Below, piece by piece: positions 4,711 through 37,662 of a DNA stretch of 57,631 nucleotides. The notes under the pieces were generated by a model. It was not told the DNA's origin and searched no databases. It worked only from the letters and a program-made list of their open reading frames with translations. Source of the DNA: Pelagibacteraceae bacterium AG-404-N13 (lineage in GTDB: Bacteria; Pseudomonadota; Alphaproteobacteria; Pelagibacterales; Pelagibacteraceae); contig QCJD01000008.1 of assembly GCA_003216255.1 (NCBI GenBank), positions 1-57,631 on the forward strand. The letters are read 5' to 3'. Every line of letters starts with the position of its first letter. The first letter of the stretch is position 1. A program made the position numbers and the translations under genes.

Positions 4711-5400
4711 TTAATGATTTAAGTATTTATTGATAATTTCTTGAATATTTACAAAATCTTTAATCAAATAATTATGATGAATTTCTGAAACTTTTTTCTC
4801 AGTATATCCATCTTCTACTAATATAAACGGAATACCAGCAGCTTTAGCTGAGTCCGCATCAGTTTCACTATCACCTATCATTAAACTTTTATTTATATCT
4901 CCATGCATAATTTCAATCACATTTGTTAAATGTCTAGGATCAGGTTTGCAATAATCAAAAGTATTACAGCCCGCAACATACTCAAAATATTCATAAATTT
5001 TTATTTTTTTTAACAAGTCTATTGCAAGGTGTTCTTGTTTATTTGTACACACTCCCATTGAAATATTATTTGTTTTTGCCCATTTTAAAAATTCTAAAAC
5101 ACCATTTATTAATTTACTTTCAACAGCTATATTATTTGCATAATACTCAATGAAATCTTTTACCATTTCATCTTTTATTTCTTTGTCGATAATCTGACCA
5201 AATTCTTTTTTTGCTTGGCCCCAAACGGCTCTTCCTATCAATGATGCAGCACCTTTTCCAACAAGTTTTTTTATATCACCTCTAGATTTTGTTTCGTAAC
5301 CAAATTTTTTCATAACATAATTATGTGCGTTCATTAGGTCGGGAGCTGTATCAATAAGAGTTCCATCTAGATCGAATAAAATTGTAAATTTTTGGACCAT
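4711..5400 (-). CDS. gph: HAD-family phosphatase, probably phosphoglycolate phosphatase
   Basis: HAD hydrolase of 229 residues. Motif I is DLDGT at residues 10-14, with D10 the nucleophile and D12 the acid/base. Motif II is the CTNKQ stretch near 118, and motif IV is GDSETDAD near 177. A helical cap between motifs I and II, with the DTAPDL start, fits the Gph type, which removes 2-phosphoglycolate. Substrate assignment in this superfamily is uncertain; another small phosphomonoester is possible. It is divergent from glmU, with 71 AT-rich bases between that should hold both promoters. Confidence 0.75.
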   Translation of the reverse strand: MVQKFTILFDLDGTLIDTAPDLMNAHNYVMKKFGYETKSRGDIKKLVGKGAASLIGRAVWGQAKKEFGQIIDKEIKDEMVKDFIEYYANNIAVESKLINGVLEFLKWAKTNNISMGVCTNKQEHLAIDLLKKIKIYEYFEYVAGCNTFDYCKPDPRHLTNVIEIMHGDINKSLMIGDSETDADSAKAAGIPFILVEDGYTEKKVSEIHHNYLIKDFVNIQEIINKYLNH

Positions 5401-5471
5401 AATTAAAAGTATTATTAAGAAATAATTTGTGAGTTAAAGTAAAGTAATACCTAAATATATATAAATATCAA

Positions 5472-6089
5472 ATGAAAGAAAAAAAAATAATAAATTTACA
5501 AAACAAATTAAGAAATAATTTTATAAAAAAAGGTGTAAAAATGATTGCGCCTGAAACAGTTTTTTTTTCAAATGATACAAAAATTGGAAAAAAAGTAGTT
5601 ATCGAACCTTATGTTGTGATTTCAAAAAAAGTAAAAATTGGCAACAATGTTACCATTTCATCTTTTTCTCATTTAGAGGGAGTGAAAATTGACAATAATG
5701 TCAAAATAGGACCTTATGCAAGAATTAGACCAGGCGTAATTATTAAATCTGGTTCAAAAATTGGTAATTTTGTTGAAGTTAAAAAAAGTAAAATTGGAAA
5801 AAATTCTAAAGTTAATCATCTTTCCTATGTTGGTGATGCTAATATTGGAAAAAATGTAAACATTGGCGCCGGAACTATTACATGCAATTATGATGGAGTT
5901 AAAAAATATAAAACAAGAATAAAAGATAAAGTTTTTATTGGATCAAATTCATCTTTAGTAGCACCAGTTACTGTTAATGAAAATAGTATTGTTGGAGCAG
6001 GATCTGTTATTACAAAAAACGTATTGAAAAATTCACTTGCACTTGAGAGAACAAATCAAGTCGAGATAAAAAATTATAAAAAAAGATAA
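5472..6089 (+). CDS. glmU: GlmU-type glucosamine-1-phosphate N-acetyltransferase domain protein (no pyrophosphorylase domain)
   Basis: A left-handed beta-helix acyltransferase of 205 residues matching only the C-terminal half of GlmU, which is normally about 450 residues. It begins in the linker helix (LQNKLR, then MIAPETVF) and runs through hexapeptide turns [42 protein letters not shown] and [11 protein letters not shown], the acetyl-CoA-binding core. The N-terminal uridylyltransferase domain is absent. The opposite-strand gph gene occupies the upstream DNA, so it has not simply been missed. It directly precedes glmS, with the stop and next ATG adjacent, so its role in UDP-GlcNAc synthesis is well supported. 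Confidence 0.85.
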
Positions 6090-7910
6090 ATGTGTGGAAT
6101 AGTAGGAATAACAAGTAATAAAGAAGTAACAACACGAATAGTTAATTCATTAAAAAAATTGGAATACAGAGGATATGATTCAGCCGGAATAGCAACTCTT
6201 AATGATGGTTTTATAAAAGAAGTTAAATGCGAAGGAAGAGTAGAAGTTTTAGAAAAAAATATAACAAGTTCAAATTTACAAGGTGAAATTGCAATAGGTC
6301 ACGTTAGATGGGCAACACATGGTAGACCAAGCACTATAAATGCTCATCCACATTCATCTGAAACTGTCTCAGTAGTTCATAATGGTATTATAGAAAACTC
6401 AACAATTTTAAAAAAAATATTAGAAAAAAAAGGCTATAATTTTAAATCTCAGACAGATACTGAAGTTATTGCACATTTGATAACTGATTATTTAAAAAAA
6501 AATAATTTAAAAAATACTATTATTAAAGTTTTAAAGAAACTACACGGTAGCTTTGCATTAGGCATTATATTTAAAGATTATCCAGATTTAATTGTAGGTG
6601 CTAGAAGAGGATCTCCTCTTGCTGTTGGATATGGTCCAAATGAAAATTACTTAGGATCAGACTCTTATGCATTAAAGTCAATGACAAATAAAGTATCTTA
6701 TCTTAATGATGGTGAGTTTTGTTTGATTAAAGACAATCAAGTTGAATTTTTTGATACCAATGGAATTAAAGTAAACAAAAAAATATTAAATTTATCACAA
6801 GATAACCAAGATAATGATAAAGGTGATTACAAACATTTCATGGCAAAAGAAATAGATGAACAACCAACAACAATAAAAAATTGTGTTAATGAATATATTG
6901 ACAAAATTAATAAACAAATAAATATTTATAATTTTCCTTGGAAAATTAACCAAATAAATTCAATTGTTTTAATAGGATGTGGAACAGCATATCACTCTTG
7001 TTTAGTAGCAAAATATTGGTTTGAAGAGTACACCTCTTTGGATGTATCAATAGATATAGCTTCTGAATTTAGATATCGAAAACTTAAATTTAAAAGTGAT
7101 TGTTTATATGTTTTTGTATCTCAATCTGGAGAAACAGCTGATACTTATGCAGCTTTAGATATATGTAAAAAAAATAAAATGAAAACATGTTCAATTGTTA
7201 ATGTTATTGAAAGTTCAATAGCTAGAGATTCTAATCTTGTTTTACCAATTCATTGTGGTCCTGAGATTGGTGTTGCATCAACCAAGGCATTTTTGGGTCA
7301 AATGCTAGTTTTATATATACTGTGTTTGAAATTATCATTTGATCAAAAAATAATTACTAAAAAAATTTATCAGGAAAAGATTAAAAATTTACTTTCTTTA
7401 TCTAACTTATGTAAAAAAACATTATTAACAGATAACAAAATACAAAAAGCAAGCAAAGAATTTATAAAAGCTAAAGGATCAATGTTTTTAGGAAGAGGTT
7501 ACTCATTTCCAATAGCACTTGAAGGAGCATTAAAATTAAAAGAACTTGCTTATGTCCATGCAGAAGGATATCCAGCAGGTGAAATGAAACATGGTCCTTT
7601 AGCATTAATAGAAGAGGGTATGCCTGTAGTTGTTCTTGCTCCAAGAGACAACCATTACAAAAAAACAATTTCAAACATGCAAGAAGTTATTGCCAGAGGA
7701 GCTAAAGTTTTACTTGTAACAAATAAAAGTAAAGATGAAATTCAATCAGAAAATATTTGGGAAAAAATAGAAGTTGAAAATTTAACAGAAGATTTATTTC
7801 CTTTTTTAATTACAGTACCTCTTCAAAAATTAGCTTATTATTCAGCATTGCAAAACGGATATGATATAGATAAACCAAGAAATTTAGCAAAATCTGTTAC
7901 AGTTGAATAA
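6090..7910 (+). CDS. glmS: Glutamine:fructose-6-phosphate aminotransferase (isomerizing)
   Basis: Full-length GlmS, 606 residues, which makes glucosamine-6-phosphate for peptidoglycan and LPS. The N-terminal class II glutamine amidotransferase domain starts MCGIVG; after Met removal, Cys is the nucleophile. It also has RWATHG near residue 74 and HNGIIEN near 98. Two SIS sugar-isomerase domains follow (SQSGETADT near 345; LGRGYSFPIALEGALKLKE near 465). The C-terminus ends DKPRNLAKSVTVE, the characteristic GlmS tail. Its ATG abuts the glmU stop, so the two amino-sugar genes form one operon. No glmS ribozyme-like leader is possible in that zero-base gap. Confidence 0.97.
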   Translation: MCGIVGITSNKEVTTRIVNSLKKLEYRGYDSAGIATLNDGFIKEVKCEGRVEVLEKNITSSNLQGEIAIGHVRWATHGRPSTINAHPHSSETVSVVHNGIIENSTILKKILEKKGYNFKSQTDTEVIAHLITDYLKKNNLKNTIIKVLKKLHGSFALGIIFKDYPDLIVGARRGSPLAVGYGPNENYLGSDSYALKSMTNKVSYLNDGEFCLIKDNQVEFFDTNGIKVNKKILNLSQDNQDNDKGDYKHFMAKEIDEQPTTIKNCVNEYIDKINKQINIYNFPWKINQINSIVLIGCGTAYHSCLVAKYWFEEYTSLDVSIDIASEFRYRKLKFKSDCLYVFVSQSGETADTYAALDICKKNKMKTCSIVNVIESSIARDSNLVLPIHCGPEIGVASTKAFLGQMLVLYILCLKLSFDQKIITKKIYQEKIKNLLSLSNLCKKTLLTDNKIQKASKEFIKAKGSMFLGRGYSFPIALEGALKLKELAYVHAEGYPAGEMKHGPLALIEEGMPVVVLAPRDNHYKKTISNMQEVIARGAKVLLVTNKSKDEIQSENIWEKIEVENLTEDLFPFLITVPLQKLAYYSALQNGYDIDKPRNLAKSVTVE

Positions 7911-31278: not shown

Positions 31279-32115
31279 ATGAAAAATTTTTTGTTAGTTT
31301 TATTTATTTATCTTTTATCAAATAGCTTCACTTTTGCTGATAATAAAATAATTAAAATTTATGAAGAACAATTTAAGCAAGGCCTGATTAGTGAAGAAGA
31401 GTACAATGCTGTTAAAAAAAATTTTGAAAATAAAAATTCAAAAAAGCAAAATAAACAAAAAAAAAAATTAAAATTAATTAAAAAAGAAACATCCAAAAAA
31501 TCAAAATTATTAAAAAAAAAAGAACCTATATTTGATGATGATTTAGCTCTATTAGAAATTTATGATAAAAAAAAATTTGAAGAAGAGTTTAAAAAATATC
31601 CAAATGAAATAATTGAATTTTTTGGAAAAAATTCAAATAATGTATCGAGAGCTAAAAAAGCTGGTAAATATATGAATATTGAATTCAATAGATCTGCTAA
31701 GGGTCAAGCAAGATTTCCAGGAAGAATGATCAAAGCAATGGCTATGTATGAATTTTTTTATATAGATCGTTTACGGGACGGCAAAGGAGCTCTTCTCAGA
31801 TATCTAGAGAAAAAAAATAGTAAATATTTAAGAAAATCTTCAGATCAAGCAAAGATTAGAAGTTTAATATCCATGAATAATGGAAGGAAAAAAATGAGAG
31901 AAGCTCTAGGTATGACTTTAGACACTCCAAGAATAGAAGCAGCTAAAAAATTTTGGTATTTAGGTGAATTTCTTGAGATGAGTACAGCTGTTAAAAACGA
32001 AAATTATGACAAAAATTTAGAAAAAAGAAAAAAACTTCTTGATGATTACAAGCAAAAAATATCCAAATTAAAAGAAAAAATACTATCTGAAGAAAAAAAA
32101 ACTGATCTTAACTAA
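31279..32115 (+). CDS. Exported hypothetical protein, first gene of island operon
   Basis: I do not recognise this 278-residue protein. A signal peptide spans about residues 1-20, ending FTFA. Residues about 28-48 (EEQFKQGLISEEEYNAVKKN) resemble the short SHOCT-type helix pair. A lysine-rich low-complexity segment runs from about 52 to 80, and then a predicted all-helical region extends to the end, with a final charged coiled coil (about 245-275). There are no catalytic motifs. Its stop shares one base with the start of the giant coiled-coil gene, so the two are translated together and their products may act together in the periplasm or at the surface. Confidence 0.75.
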   Translation: MKNFLLVLFIYLLSNSFTFADNKIIKIYEEQFKQGLISEEEYNAVKKNFENKNSKKQNKQKKKLKLIKKETSKKSKLLKKKEPIFDDDLALLEIYDKKKFEEEFKKYPNEIIEFFGKNSNNVSRAKKAGKYMNIEFNRSAKGQARFPGRMIKAMAMYEFFYIDRLRDGKGALLRYLEKKNSKYLRKSSDQAKIRSLISMNNGRKKMREALGMTLDTPRIEAAKKFWYLGEFLEMSTAVKNENYDKNLEKRKKLLDDYKQKISKLKEKILSEEKKTDLN

Positions 32116-35100
32116 TGAAAAAAATATTATTTATACTCATACTCTTTCTTAATTTTAGCACTGCATACTCGATAGACCTCGATTCATTGTCAGAGGCTAC
32201 GAAAGAAGTTGAAAAGGTACAAGAAGATTTAAAAAATTTGTCTAAATCAGATAGTGATATAGCAAATACTATTGATAGTGCGGTTGAACAAATAAACAAA
32301 GCAACTGAATTTGTAAAAAAATCTTTAGAAGAAAACAATGTTGATAGTGCGATTAAAACTTTAGAGTTTATAGAAAAATCATTAGGTGATGTTGCAAACA
32401 TTGTTCCCCAAGAATTAACCTCCGACATGACTAAAGTAGATATGACTCAATTAGATCAAGACAAACTCGATACAGTTATGTCTATTACTAAAAATATGAA
32501 TGAAAATAAGGAGCAAAAATTAAACGAGTTAGTCTCCAACATGGTTGAAATGCAAGGAGAGGGATTAGAAGTTCAAGAGATAACTAGCAATTTAAAAGAA
32601 CTTGGAATTGATACAATAGAAATTGGTGTTGATTTAGAAAAAGTTAATGAGATGAGCAAGTGGTCCAAAGAACAATGGGCTGAATCTTATAAAGGTTCTG
32701 TGATTATTAATGCTGGAACCGAAGTTATTGTAGATAAAGAAATAGATAATAAAATTTTAGAATTAGAAAATAAACTTAGTCAAAATAACGTAAAACTTCT
32801 CGAGACAAGAAATAATATTAAAGGATTAGAAAATGAATTAACTCCCTTAAATTCTCAAATTGTTTCTTTATCTGAAAAGAAAAAAAACTTACTTGATCAA
32901 TATAATTCAGAATTATTAAAACAAGATTTATCAGGTATCAATGATGAAGAAATAGCTAATAGCAAAGCTCTTTCCGATGGATTAACTGTAGAAATTTCAA
33001 ATTTAAATAACCAAATTAATCAAATTGAAAATCAATCAGCAAATATTAAGCAACAGGTAGCAAGCCTTAATACAGAGCTATCAAATGAAATTGCTGTATC
33101 AAATGATATTAACTCTAAAATATCACAGTTAAATCAACAAATTCAGAATAATCAAAATCTATTAAGATCAAAACAAGCTGAATTAGAACAAATTAAAAAT
33201 TCATCACCAAATATTGCATCTGTTAATAATGAATTAAATGAAAGACTTCAAAAGGCATCTCTTGAAAGAGATTTTATCCAAACTCAATTTGAGAGATCAA
33301 TAGACAAGGAAGTTGAACATTTTCAAATTTACGCAAATATTTTTTCAGATGATATGTCAGAGGAAGAGATTGATTTTGCGTTTAAAGAGGTAGGGGCTCT
33401 CTTAAGTGGAGACCCTAGAAAATCTAGAGCTTTTGAGATAGAGAAATATGGAACATTTGCTGGTCTTTCTCAAAGTGAAATTCAAAGTGGTGTTAATGCG
33501 GCAATGAATGATGACTGGGGAACACAGAAAAAAGTAGTTAAAAAAATATATTCTAAACTTAGTAAAAATCCTAATTGGGTAGTGGATGTTCCATCAGATG
33601 CTGGATTAAATGTATTAATAGCAGAAGAGCAGGCCATTCAAGAAGCAGTTTTTGTGATGGATCAAAGTAGAAAAGTACAAGCTGAAGTGGATAAAATTAT
33701 TAATCAGCGAACTGCACAGTATCAAGATGTTTTGTCGATTAACCAACCAGACTGGGCGATAGAAAGTGCATCTTTATATGGTAAAGCAAAAGAGTATGTA
33801 GACAAAGAGTTTAATATAATTGCAGCACAAAATACAGAATACTCAAACTTATTAAATCAAATATCAGAAAAACAATCAGAACTTAAAATATTAGATGAAT
33901 TGAATAAAGAAAGACAAAATAAAATTAATTCTTTGATAGCTCCTTTGCAAAATGAAATGCAGAAAGCTTATGATGAGATGAGTGATATTCAAAATAAATC
34001 GATAGTTAAGCAAATTCAAAAAAATGAGTATATTAATTCAATTGGTGGATATGATAAACTTTATAGAGACCAAGGAAACCCTGAGTATAGTAATTGGATT
34101 AAAAACATAAACAATTTTGATAATGAAATTGGTGCTTTAAATAGTGAAATTACAAAATCTAGTACTGAATATTTCAATAAGAGTTCAGAAATAAATAAAA
34201 TTAGAATTGAAAATCAAACATCGATGAGTGAATGGAATCAATACTATTCAGTTAACAGCGAGGTAAACAAATTAAACTTTAATAAAATTTCAATTGAGTC
34301 TGAAATAAATAAACAGGCTAGAGTAAATGTAATTAATCTCAAAAAGAATGCTGTTGAGGAGGTAAACAAAATTAGAGCAGAAGAGATAGCTAAAACAAAC
34401 GGTCTTTACAATACAGAAGATGCTGTATTTAATGTTTTAAATAAAATCCCAACTTTTGATGAAGCTCAAAGAAAAAGAGCCAAAGAAGTTATATCTGGCG
34501 GATATTATGCAATATCGGGAGGTCAAATTGTAGGTTTTGATGATAAAGCAGCTGGTTTGATAGCTGCGCTTGATAGTGATGCAAATACGTATGATGCTTT
34601 TAAAGCAGCTGTTGATAATGTTAAAAAAATTGGAAAAACACCTGCTTTTGATAGTCATCATTATGAAATGACTAATGTTAAATTAGCAGCAATAGTTCAT
34701 TCAAGATTAAATGGCAATTATGATTACATGAATTTTGGTGAGTCTGATAAATTACAACTTTCAACGGCAGATAGAGCAAGACTAGAGCAAGAATTATCAA
34801 AATTATACGGTTCTAATAATCCAAAATTAAATGTTCTTAATACTGAAATTGATCAACTTAATAATCAAATAAATACAAATAGTTCAAAACTAACTAATAT
34901 AAACCAAGATATAGTAAAACTTGAAAGCGAAATAAACTCTCTTCAAACAAGTGAAAATGAAATAAATAATCAACTTAATCAATTAACTTCAGAACTAAAT
35001 GTTAAACAATCATTGATTTCTGAGAAAAAAAATTCCTTGAATGTTTTGCAGTCTGAACTTGAACCAATTTCAGGTAAAATAAATGAACTAGAAAATCAAA

Positions 35101-36782
35101 GAGCAGGTTTAAATGAAAAATTTGATCAACAAATTAATGTAATCGCAGAACAATTGAAAAACCAAGGACAAAGCTCAGCAGATACAGAAGCTTTAAAATC
35201 TAAATTTGAGAGTGAAATTGCTGCAATAGATAGTCAGTTAAATGAATTTAAAAATCAGTCAGATAAAATAACCACTAACATAACTTCATTAAGTAATGAT
35301 CTCCAAGTTTTGGAGTTAGAAACCCCTGAAATAGCAAGCCAAATAACAAAATTAAATACTGATCTTCAAAATGCAATTGACATAAAAGCTGATCTTGCAA
35401 TCTCAGAAGCAAGAAAAGCAAACATTGAAATAGAAGAAAAAATCATTGGTTCAATTGCTCAATTAGATAATAAATCGATTATAAAAATTGAAGGCTCAAA
35501 CTCTTTAAGAGTTGTTGATACTAATTTGTTAACAAATGAGGCTGGAAAATTTAAAATGCCAGAAGGCACAATGACGGTTAATGGAAATATATTTACTGCA
35601 GGTGCTGTACAGCCTGAAAGACTTTTATCTTTTGAAGCAATAGATCAAACTGGTGATTTAAAAGTTTCATACTCAAAAGCAGCAATAGAGCAAATCAGTA
35701 ACACTGGTAAATTAGCTGGTGGCACACAAACCTACTCAGGTTCAACACTTGGTTCTTGGGTTTTAGTTGATGCAGCTACAGGTAAACAAATGAAAAACCC
35801 TCTTAATGGTCACCAAGGTTCAATAGTTTGTGAAGCAAGCACTTGTGGCCCTCAAGGTTCATTTGGAAAACAAGCTGCCTCTTTTGGAGGAATGTATGTA
35901 ATGGAAAATTTAGCGAATCCCGAGACAGGAAATGTTGCAGGCATGTGTTCAGGTGGTAATTGTGAATTTAATTTTAGTCAAAATGTTGTTTCAGGCATGG
36001 CAACTAGTAGTACAAATAACTCACAAAGTTTTGAATTAAGTGAAACAGCTAAAGCTAATATAGATGCTGCTCGAGAAATTACAGAGGCAAACGCAGATGT
36101 TGCGAAAAATGTTATTTCAAAAACTTCAGATATTTCATCCAATGTAATTGATAAATTAAGTGAAGTTGCAAGTCTAGGTGGAGATTCAAGTAGGTTACAA
36201 AAAACAATTCAAGAAATTAATAAATCACAAGCTGCTGCTGCTCAAATGATTGCATCTGGTGTTGGAACTACAATTACAAATTCTTTATCAAGTCAAACCG
36301 CAGCAGATGCCTTAGCAGGTCAAATGGCTAGAGATATGGTTCAAGGTGCTAGTAACGAAGTTAATTCAACATCACAGCAATTAAGAGAAGCACAAGAAGC
36401 TTTAGCTAGTGCAACTACTGAAGTAGCTAAAGCTGCAGCGCAAGAAAGTGTTAATGCAGCGCAAGTTGCAAACACTGCCGCTCAAGAAGCTCTTCAAGCT
36501 GCACAAGAAGCAACACAAGAAATACAACAAGCAGCTCGTGATGCACAAGAAGCTGCAGGCACTGCAGTTGCAGGTATAAGTGGAAATGATTTAGAAGCTT
36601 TAAGTCAATTAGCTAATGATGCACTAGGTGTTTGGCAAGAAGTTGACGCTCAAGGTAATCCAGTTAATAATCAACAAATTGTTTGTACAGCAAGTGTGTG
36701 TGGATCAGGTGGATCTTTTGGTAAAGATGCTGCATCAAGAGGGAATTCATATGTTAGAACTAATAGAACAGATGGATATTAA
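32115..36782 (+). CDS. Giant exported coiled-coil protein with duplicated Cys-pair modules
   Basis: A 1555-residue protein with a signal peptide (about 1-19). Long coiled coils rich in Asn, Gln, Glu, Leu and Ser fill about 210-410, 590-770 and 900-1110. Two globular-looking insertions lie near 415-560 and 780-890. The C-terminal third is different: a module starting W1215 (VDAATG, IVCEASTCG, GSFGKQAAS) recurs at the very end from W1507 (VDAQGN, IVCTASVCG, GSFGKDAAS). Between them is an Ala/Gln-rich helix. No catalytic motif or transmembrane anchor is seen after the signal. It may be a periplasm-spanning or surface fibre. It is middle gene of a tight three-gene operon. Confidence 0.8.
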   Translation: MKKILFILILFLNFSTAYSIDLDSLSEATKEVEKVQEDLKNLSKSDSDIANTIDSAVEQINKATEFVKKSLEENNVDSAIKTLEFIEKSLGDVANIVPQELTSDMTKVDMTQLDQDKLDTVMSITKNMNENKEQKLNELVSNMVEMQGEGLEVQEITSNLKELGIDTIEIGVDLEKVNEMSKWSKEQWAESYKGSVIINAGTEVIVDKEIDNKILELENKLSQNNVKLLETRNNIKGLENELTPLNSQIVSLSEKKKNLLDQYNSELLKQDLSGINDEEIANSKALSDGLTVEISNLNNQINQIENQSANIKQQVASLNTELSNEIAVSNDINSKISQLNQQIQNNQNLLRSKQAELEQIKNSSPNIASVNNELNERLQKASLERDFIQTQFERSIDKEVEHFQIYANIFSDDMSEEEIDFAFKEVGALLSGDPRKSRAFEIEKYGTFAGLSQSEIQSGVNAAMNDDWGTQKKVVKKIYSKLSKNPNWVVDVPSDAGLNVLIAEEQAIQEAVFVMDQSRKVQAEVDKIINQRTAQYQDVLSINQPDWAIESASLYGKAKEYVDKEFNIIAAQNTEYSNLLNQISEKQSELKILDELNKERQNKINSLIAPLQNEMQKAYDEMSDIQNKSIVKQIQKNEYINSIGGYDKLYRDQGNPEYSNWIKNINNFDNEIGALNSEITKSSTEYFNKSSEINKIRIENQTSMSEWNQYYSVNSEVNKLNFNKISIESEINKQARVNVINLKKNAVEEVNKIRAEEIAKTNGLYNTEDAVFNVLNKIPTFDEAQRKRAKEVISGGYYAISGGQIVGFDDKAAGLIAALDSDANTYDAFKAAVDNVKKIGKTPAFDSHHYEMTNVKLAAIVHSRLNGNYDYMNFGESDKLQLSTADRARLEQELSKLYGSNNPKLNVLNTEIDQLNNQINTNSSKLTNINQDIVKLESEINSLQTSENEINNQLNQLTSELNVKQSLISEKKNSLNVLQSELEPISGKINELENQRAGLNEKFDQQINVIAEQLKNQGQSSADTEALKSKFESEIAAIDSQLNEFKNQSDKITTNITSLSNDLQVLELETPEIASQITKLNTDLQNAIDIKADLAISEARKANIEIEEKIIGSIAQLDNKSIIKIEGSNSLRVVDTNLLTNEAGKFKMPEGTMTVNGNIFTAGAVQPERLLSFEAIDQTGDLKVSYSKAAIEQISNTGKLAGGTQTYSGSTLGSWVLVDAATGKQMKNPLNGHQGSIVCEASTCGPQGSFGKQAASFGGMYVMENLANPETGNVAGMCSGGNCEFNFSQNVVSGMATSSTNNSQSFELSETAKANIDAAREITEANADVAKNVISKTSDISSNVIDKLSEVASLGGDSSRLQKTIQEINKSQAAAAQMIASGVGTTITNSLSSQTAADALAGQMARDMVQGASNEVNSTSQQLREAQEALASATTEVAKAAAQESVNAAQVANTAAQEALQAAQEATQEIQQAARDAQEAAGTAVAGISGNDLEALSQLANDALGVWQEVDAQGNPVNNQQIVCTASVCGSGGSFGKDAASRGNSYVRTNRTDGY

Positions 36783-36783
36783 A

Positions 36784-37662
36784 ATGAAAAAACTTTTAGG
36801 GTTCGTGGTTCTTGGTTTATTGTGGAGTAGTTTTGGTTTTGCAGATGTTGAGAAGATTCTTAAAGATATAAAGAAAAATAAAGATATAGCTCAAGGTTAT
36901 AATAAAGTTAAAGAATACGATAAAAGAAATAATTGGAGAATAAACCCAAAACAAATATTAAAGTCAGATAAAACATCGAGGAAACATATTCTTAAAATTG
37001 TAGATAAAAGCGATGGATATCCAGTAAGATTTGGAAACCAATCGTTAAAATTTGAAGTTAGAGATGGAGATACATGGGGATGGGATAAAAAAAATGATCG
37101 TGAGAGAGTAGAGCTTATAATATGTTGTTTTGAAAAAAAAACTCACTGGAGTATGTGGTCGATATATTTTCCCAATGATTTTCAAGTAATTTTTCCTACA
37201 AAAGTTGCTTTAGGACAATTTCATAATTCAGGAGATAATCCTCCTGAATTTATGTTTCAAAATCAATTTGATAAATATTCAAAATCAAAGTCTGGAGGTT
37301 ATTGGGTTACTCCTGCTGAAAGTATAAGTGATCATGTATCGAAAAAACTTTTAGAACAAGAAGATATGCTGGGTAAATGGAATGATATTTTAGTCAATAC
37401 AAAATGGACTCATAAAGAAGATGGGTTTTTTAAAATTTGGATAAATGGAAAGTTAACTTATGAGCATAAAGGAAAAACACATTTGAAAGGAGACGAAATA
37501 GAATATCAGTTAGGTATATATAGATCCTTTGGATCAAGATCTCCGGGAGCTGATCCTACTCAAATAGTTTATTTTGATGAATTACGTTATGCTAAGTCAT
37601 GCAAAAAACTTAAATTAAAAGATTTAGGTTATTCGTGTAAAGAAATTGAAAATCAAAAATAA
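36784..37662 (+). CDS. Exported polysaccharide-lyase-like protein
   Basis: I start this at ATG 36784, one base after the previous stop, giving 292 residues that begin with a signal peptide ending SFGFA (about 20). An upstream in-frame ATG inside the giant gene would bury the signal sequence. The body resembles the heparin/glucuronan-lyase jelly roll (Polysacc_lyase type): SLKFEVRDGDTWGWD, the RERVEL pair used for substrate contacts, FHNSGDNPPEF, KIWINGKLTYEHKG, YQLGIYRSFGS and VYFDELRYAKS. It probably cuts or binds an acidic polysaccharide; the substrate is unknown. It is the last gene of the island operon, reading toward the opposite-strand tRNA-Thr. Confidence 0.7.
   Translation: MKKLLGFVVLGLLWSSFGFADVEKILKDIKKNKDIAQGYNKVKEYDKRNNWRINPKQILKSDKTSRKHILKIVDKSDGYPVRFGNQSLKFEVRDGDTWGWDKKNDRERVELIICCFEKKTHWSMWSIYFPNDFQVIFPTKVALGQFHNSGDNPPEFMFQNQFDKYSKSKSGGYWVTPAESISDHVSKKLLEQEDMLGKWNDILVNTKWTHKEDGFFKIWINGKLTYEHKGKTHLKGDEIEYQLGIYRSFGSRSPGADPTQIVYFDELRYAKSCKKLKLKDLGYSCKEIENQK

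Follow-up and report, generated by a model that had tools for sequence, protein, structure and literature searches.

GlmU without its uridylyltransferase domain in SAR11 bacteria, and candidate resident enzymes for the missing step of UDP-GlcNAc synthesis

We found that the gene at 5472..6089 of the window is a conserved GlmU without its N-terminal uridylyltransferase domain and under purifying selection, and that this C-only form is the rule in most genera of the family to which the genome belongs. The window is the whole stretch analysed, 57,631 nucleotides from Pelagibacteraceae bacterium AG-404-N13, and lies in contig C8 of draft genome G000 (1,166,071 bases, 40 contigs, 83.42% complete). 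Domain loss together with a working acetyltransferase is almost certain from sequence comparison. The protein represents a known enzyme in variant form rather than something new in kind; what makes the case interesting is the uridylyltransferase step left open and the short list of candidates for it. Both lipid A and peptidoglycan depend on UDP-GlcNAc, SAR11 bacteria are counted among the most abundant bacteria of the ocean, and in most SAR11 genera sampled the enzyme for the last step of UDP-GlcNAc synthesis is not recognisable. It appears likely that a resident enzyme from the same superfamily took this step over. The best explanation as a whole, domain loss in place combined with a take-over by GalU in the clade of the window genome, is a tentative proposal that falls somewhat short of being probable. 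The features of the locus are as follows.

5472..6089, + strand: glmU, C-domain only, putative glucosamine-1-phosphate N-acetyltransferase of 205 aa with an ATG start (GlmU profiles, Hexapep PF00132, PDB GlmU chains)
5475..5528, + strand: GlmU linker helix, residues 2-19, retained despite the loss of the N-domain (helix H2-19 of the model)
5817..5819, + strand: His116, counterpart of GlmU His363 (alignment via PDB 3fww numbering)
5401..5471, no strand: divergent spacer of 71 bases from the phosphatase gene to the short glmU, without N-domain remnant (spacing and tblastn)
4711..5400, - strand: HAD phosphatase of the phosphoglycolate phosphatase type (PRK13222.1-2, 164.4 bits, below the cut-off of 225)
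6090..7910, + strand: glmS, glutamine--fructose-6-phosphate transaminase (TIGR01135, 741.8 bits, above the cut-off of 418.05)

We compared the 205-aa protein with GlmU profiles and with solved GlmU structures. TIGR01173 matched it over positions 236-448 of 452 with 243.8 bits, which does not reach the curated cut-off for bifunctional GlmU (366.85 bits), and PRK14353 matched over positions 242-434 of 453 (E 1.8e-90). Hexapep PF00132 was found in the profile search, the solved PDB GlmU chains aligned through their C-terminal part only (E down to 4.7e-51), and residue 9 onward aligned with fused GlmU from residue 237 or 242. The profile starts at 236 or 242 bear out the sequence-only reading, which had placed the beginning of the protein at the GlmU linker helix; its claim that the whole uridylyltransferase domain is absent also stands, with the TIGR01173 match beginning at 236 and no N-domain upstream. 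Compared to the bifunctional GlmU of the E. coli type (TIGR01173, ~430-455 aa), the window protein has the linker, the C-terminal hexapeptide repeats, the acetyltransferase residues and the place by glmS in common, whereas the whole N-terminal nucleotidyltransferase domain is missing.

Eleven residues were checked with numbering via PDB 3fww (R333, K351, H363, Y366, N377, N386, Y387, K392, S405, A423 and R440), which in E. coli GlmU carry or line the site of acetyl transfer. All 11 were retained in all 93 C-only proteins, comprising 80 from named loci, the window's own and 12 from further genomes. At the position of His116, histidine was found in 93 of 93 proteins of this alignment and was invariant in a separate alignment of 21; GlmU His363 is a catalytic residue, hence the role assigned to His116. 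The dN/dS values of the short glmU against four relatives were 0.109, 0.076, 0.114 and 0.150. We infer that the protein acts as a GlcN-1-P N-acetyltransferase. Its AlphaFold model was poor overall (mean pLDDT of 77.9, with the five models ranging from 77.9 to 48.2), and helix H2-19 had a block pLDDT of 62-66. A Foldseek search with this model gave nothing at E <= 0.001 and no GlmU in the best 50 of 280 matches. Because solved GlmU chains match the sequence with E values down to 4.7e-51, we took the model as wrong, resulting from a shallow alignment, and drew on it for the helix alone.

The glmS gene starts at the base right after the stop codon of the short glmU, so the two genes are directly adjacent, as the sequence-only reading had stated. 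On the other side, the 71-base gap between the start codon and the divergent phosphatase gene is too short for an upstream N-domain to fit, and tblastn searches of the 93 C-only loci with two GlmU N-domain queries revealed no remnant at E <= 1. Neither a GlmU N-domain nor a full-length GlmU, which the sequence-only reading had named as the finding that would speak against it, was found elsewhere in G000 at 83.42% completeness in 40 contigs. The HAD phosphatase scored 78.3 bits with the MupP model, below its cut-off of 359. According to the available text of PMC13046382, the gene assigned to MupP in Caulobacter adjoins glmU (CCNA_02390/CCNA_02389), and the window phosphatase is its positional counterpart.

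We then denoted the family of the window genome as f1, its genus as f1/g1 and the other family as f2; clade A, the clade of the window genome, comprises genus codes g1, g8 and g9. Of 455 confirmed loci, 80 were kept as named loci, with the labels Pelagibacteraceae, Candidatus Pelagibacter or Pelagibacterales (SAR11). The protein had 202-211 aa in all 80. Of the 78 loci covering both genes, 72 had a spacer of 65-73 bases, the other six lengths being -26, -9, 16, 46, 46 and 59. Among the 49 f1/g1 genomes, 37 gave a C-only match and none a full GlmU. In the remaining 12, a GlmU match of this size was absent, as would be expected of incomplete genomes, although G004, at 96% completeness, is one of them. 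The f2 genomes exhibited a full GlmU over the cut-off in 27 of 32, two pieces in one (G076) and none in four. In an order-wide survey of 298 genomes, 258 had a GlmU match at E <= 1e-25 and 40 had no match; the 40 genomes over the full-length cut-off were 34 from f2 and six from f1 (two g5 and four g7). The other f1 matches listed (g1, g6, g8, g9, g10 and g11) were half-size, and they were the C-half wherever the position was seen. The related genomes thus share the short form, a point that the sequence-only reading had proposed to check, and the form is not peculiar to the window genome.

Eight closed genomes, seven of g1 and G085 of g6, had a half-size GlmU match. The C-half was seen in G012, G082, G090 and G085, and G083, G086, G087 and G088 gave matches of half size; the one in G086 must be the C-half because PF00483 finds only ManC-, GalU- and MurU-like proteins there. 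We take G085 to be an LD12-type genome. An assembly gap, a frameshift or a pseudogene might be suspected in an 83% complete draft. However, the short form in 80 of 80 named loci and in closed genomes, the low dN/dS and the 72 of 78 loci with a spacer of 65-73 bases make such an artefact practically negligible.

The statement of the sequence-only reading that bacterial GlmU is nearly always fused agrees with our survey of 289 alphaproteobacterial genomes, made up of the window genome and others with a completeness of 90% or more, in which 278 were matched at E <= 1e-25 and 255 scored over the full-length cut-off. Half-size matches only were observed in families f39 (3/3 listed), f49 (2/2), f77 (3/3) and f123 (2/2) and in G396 and G420, with genomes of 0.7-2.3 Mb, and GlmU domain loss may have happened repeatedly across the alphaproteobacteria. 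A literature search that lay outside most subscription papers found no published account of the SAR11 GlmU domain loss.

Fused GlmU is ancestral and persists in relatives, and the domain was lost in place. A fused GlmU was found at the same phosphatase / glmU / glmS locus in f2 (4/4 loci) and in g5 and g7, so this locus is common to the fused genes and the short genes of the C-only genera. The notable split described in the sequence-only reading therefore stands as far as the absence of the domain is concerned, but it is a loss from a gene fused at the same locus in relatives and not a division into two genes. In the N-domain tree, six fused f1 rows (99/97) joined ten f2 rows (99/97, including three identical pairs) at 99/99, separate from 14 other alphaproteobacterial rows. 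This grouping indicates vertical inheritance of the N-domain, with a later loss in the C-only genera. A regain of the N-domain in g5 and g7 by transfer from other alphaproteobacteria received no support from the tree.

The number of losses was judged from four trees. The C-domain tree placed fused g5 as sister to C-only g6 (86/95), and the MurU tree placed g5, g11 and g6 together (95/92); both suggest at least two losses. The GalU tree placed g6/LD12 beside clade A (95/91, with a long-branch warning), and the GlmS tree placed g5 within or next to g1. In our reading, at least two N-domain losses are preferred, and one is allowed by the GalU tree. If the GalU tree is true, one GlmU loss may have preceded the change in GalU described below. 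The GlmS of g5 (L187 and L189; G081 and G084) groups with g1, though the GlmU C-domain of g5 groups with g6, and gene transfer or recombination around glmS is possible at this locus. In addition, the MurU tree groups g11 (L172, G326) and fused g5 (99/95), yet g11 shows a half-size GlmU match; if g11 is C-only, this would be another independent loss. In G189, a frame change within the N-domain interrupts the fused glmU (L188:3758-5079, with overlapping frames of 81 and 366 aa), as opposed to the intact glmU of its near relative G095. This is either a real break of the N-domain or a sequencing error.

The genes lpxA (343.3 bits, cut-off 226), lpxD (303.2, cut-off 242.5) and lpxB (226.2, cut-off 190.25) all passed in G000, in one row with an LpxI-like gene (145.7 bits, cut-off 400) and a putative fabZ frame. 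Since LpxA and LpxB are present and use UDP-GlcNAc, it is still required, and another enzyme must supply the uridylyl transfer, in line with the sequence-only reading. That reading had suggested a standalone GlmU N-domain or a UAP-like enzyme, and neither was found. Our family searches for this step covered Pfam PF00483, PF12804 and PF01704. No UAP/UDPGP enzyme (PF01704) scored above the curated cut-off in the 81 genomes. In closed G086, PF00483 at E <= 1 gave three other proteins (ManC-, GalU- and MurU-like) and nothing else; a stand-alone N-domain would have appeared there, since the intact N-domains of f1 and f2 score 47.6-57.0 bits with this profile. The same three enzymes were present in all eight closed half-size-GlmU genomes, which narrows the PF00483 candidates to GalU, MurU and ManC. 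The ManC-like protein was assigned by length, and in G000 and G086 also by its neighbour. The closed fused genomes G081, G084 and G189 also have GalU- and MurU-like enzymes, and hence no new PF00483 gene marks the loss of the GlmU domain.

Some further proteins were considered and set aside. MocA-like proteins of ~190 aa gave ~59 bits with the GlmU profile; the one in G012 fits MocA best (138 bits, cut-off 186.45), and its gene adjoins a putative XdhC-like gene. RfbA is not universal, with no match in G086 and G090. A 250-aa protein of G085 is a relative of glucose-1-phosphate cytidylyltransferase (79.2 bits, below the cut-off).

We propose that GlcNAc-1-P from the short GlmU would be converted to UDP-GlcNAc by a nucleotidyltransferase already resident in the lineage, which would have made the GlmU N-domain dispensable. 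An uridylyltransferase that is unrecognised or unrelated, either YvcK/GlmR-like or a diverged enzyme outside the three Pfam families, is rather improbable. The available text of PMC10128056 provides a precedent, in that GlmR/YvcK of Listeria, B. subtilis and S. aureus is a non-GlmU protein that makes UDP-GlcNAc from GlcNAc-1-P and UTP. However, the same text places GlmR in Firmicutes and Actinobacteria, where it is accessory beside an intact GlmU, unlike the C-only GlmU of SAR11; every PF00483 gene common to the C-only genomes, moreover, also occurs in the fused ones.

A separation of the two reactions is familiar from eukaryotes, in which GlcN-phosphate acetyltransferase and the UAP pyrophosphorylase are separate proteins. 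The likeness to SAR11 ends there, as the SAR11 acetyltransferase is the GlmU C-domain and UAP/UDPGP enzymes over the cut-off occurred in 0 of 81 genomes.

It is also conceivable that no uridylylation of GlcNAc-1-P is needed, with precursors being salvaged or bypassed and the C-domain acetylating another sugar phosphate. The retention of muramic acid recycling genes would agree with this, and alternative routes were suggested for Rickettsiaceae without GlmS and GlmM in the available text of PMC5814848. However, glmS, which feeds de novo synthesis, is intact and adjoins the short glmU, and 11 of 11 checked acetyltransferase residues are retained. Furthermore, recycling gives UDP-MurNAc, which is not known to serve LpxA or MurG. 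Such a bypass is very unlikely.

Among the resident enzymes, a dual-specific GalU fits the evidence best, as we infer from its substrate motifs, and GalU is a plausible replacement enzyme though not quite a probable one. In clade A, the GalU-like enzyme of the panC/galU-ugd locus would use both Glc-1-P and GlcNAc-1-P, following the substrate-motif changes Leu109 to Thr (in the GLG motif), Tyr168 to Trp and Gln228 to His. The 24 full-length clade-A GalUs (22 from g1, one from g8 and one from g9) all showed K21S, L109T, Y168W and Q228H, and 16 of them also P24A. They consequently carry GTG and WG in place of the GLG and YG motifs of GalU. In contrast, Lys, Leu, Tyr and Gln were kept at these four positions in the seven canonical GalUs compared, namely three from fused genomes (g5/g7), the single LD12-type one and three from the PDB; G-L-G and Y-G were seen in all five PDB alignments listed, of 16 matched. 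The rows of this comparison were f1 and PDB proteins, and the counts leave aside G004, with its gene in pieces, and G050, an f2 protein of 30% identity that we read as RfbA-like.

In the alignment, Thr109 fell on the threonine in LGTGHA of GlmU and on Leu88 in a SAR11 RfbA. Trp168 and His228 are not GlmU-like, and Thr109 alone brings GalU closer to GlmU. Judged from the motif, Thr109 would occupy the position mutated in the engineered RmlA L89T, which showed raised tolerance for sugar-1-phosphates in the available text of PMC9415975. If the dual reading of GalU is true, the natural Leu-to-Thr exchange mirrors the laboratory broadening of RmlA. Changes at otherwise invariant GalU columns numbered 5-6 in clade A (four members), 4 in LD12, 3 in g7, 1 in g5 and 3-7 in the PDB rows; the number in clade A is thus ordinary, and only the place and nature of the changes are suggestive. 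Likewise, all 11 f1 GalUs scanned scored under the TIGR01099 cut-off of 326.8 (237-272 bits), and since those of fused genomes are included, there is no family-level shift of GalU.

In 10 of 10 genomes, galU was flanked by a panC-like and a ugd-like gene, the names being our own reading. This place next to ugd argues that GalU still makes UDP-glucose. The use of UDP-glucose in vitro by a glycolipid enzyme of HTCC7211, given in the available text of PMC8231724, argues likewise that UDP-glucose is still made in SAR11. The LD12-type G085 has a C-only GlmU yet a canonical GalU, so the GalU change was not needed for the GlmU loss in this type (n = 1). Against this background, it is doubtful, though conceivable, that the GalU of the dominant SAR11 lineages is a dual UDP-glucose/UDP-GlcNAc pyrophosphorylase that freed the GlmU N-domain, with the LD12 type perhaps using MurU instead. 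No GalU was found in the window's own genome, which is 83% complete. In G004 (96% complete), which is also without a GlmU match of the usual size, galU is in pieces (L258, G004:C1:300-2200); this fragmentation is either a draft error or a real loss.

MurU is a close rival to GalU. The MurNAc-1-P uridylyltransferase of peptidoglycan recycling might also use GlcNAc-1-P and so supply UDP-GlcNAc, a possibility that we regard as on the unlikely side. All 28 f1 genomes chosen contained a MurU-like protein, as did 36 of the 49 f1/g1 genomes (matches at E <= 1.5e-26, frames of 228-248 aa, amgK-type locus); it is present in G000, where GalU was not found. In all 12 genomes examined for gene order, its gene adjoined an AmgK-like gene, and 11 of these 12 loci had a frame that we read as TsaE-like. 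The natural substrate of MurU differs from GlcNAc-1-P by a lactyl ether only and is thus nearer to it than glucose-1-P. MurU was discovered through its identity with the GlmU transferase domain, according to the available text of PMC5371407.

Residue 109 of MurU, beside the conserved Asp110, was Pro in 27 of 27 clade-A rows (here including g10), Ser in 10 of 10 rows of g5, g6, g7 and g11, and Ser or Cys in f2. In the LD12 type, MurU carried LGTGGG in three of three, nearer to the LGTGHA of GlmU; the other MurUs had D, N or E before TGG, except for the g1 row of G004 (G). However, MurU is equally common in the fused f2 genomes, and none of the columns invariant in the remaining MurUs carries a fixed change in clade A or LD12. 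The MurU scores of ~84-140 bits against the NF045761 cut-off of 250 also include fused genomes; G000 gave 109.1 bits, and the cut-off was exceeded in 0 of 81, 0 of 28 and 0 of 14 control genomes. In addition, MurU has its own recycling job, as 61 of the 81 genomes retain the upstream AnmK (35 of 49 in f1 and 26 of 32 in f2). The idea that AmgK and MurU have no other job in SAR11 was dropped because AnmK is so widely kept. No statement that MurU acts on GlcNAc-1-P was found in the available portions of the MurU papers.

The AmgK-MurU shunt of Pseudomonas and Caulobacter makes UDP-MurNAc, according to the available text of PMC5371407 and PMC13046382. SAR11 has AmgK-like and MurU-like proteins, AnmK and the phosphatase at the MupP position in common with it, whereas supplying UDP-GlcNAc would be a new role for such a shunt. 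The MurU- and AmgK-like genes lie at L006:1150-2783 (G000:C5) of this streamlined genome, where the AmgK-like gene gave 139.8 bits with NF045759, below the cut-off of 550. Muramic acid recycling seems to be retained in SAR11.

If GalU or MurU does the step, automatic pathway annotation is incomplete for much of the family, and a streamlined genome would have dropped a catalytic domain by reusing another enzyme. If GalU in clade A and MurU in the LD12 type both do it, two resident enzymes would have filled one essential step.

Two further observations concern G000. In the window, a 1555-aa ORF (32115-36782) and a 344-aa ORF (36628-37662) lie on the same strand in different frames with a 155-base overlap, and a frame change may have divided what is a single long gene. 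At L004:1483-2652 (G000:C1), a 389-aa protein is a fusion of an HddC-like nucleotidyltransferase and a GmhB-like phosphatase.
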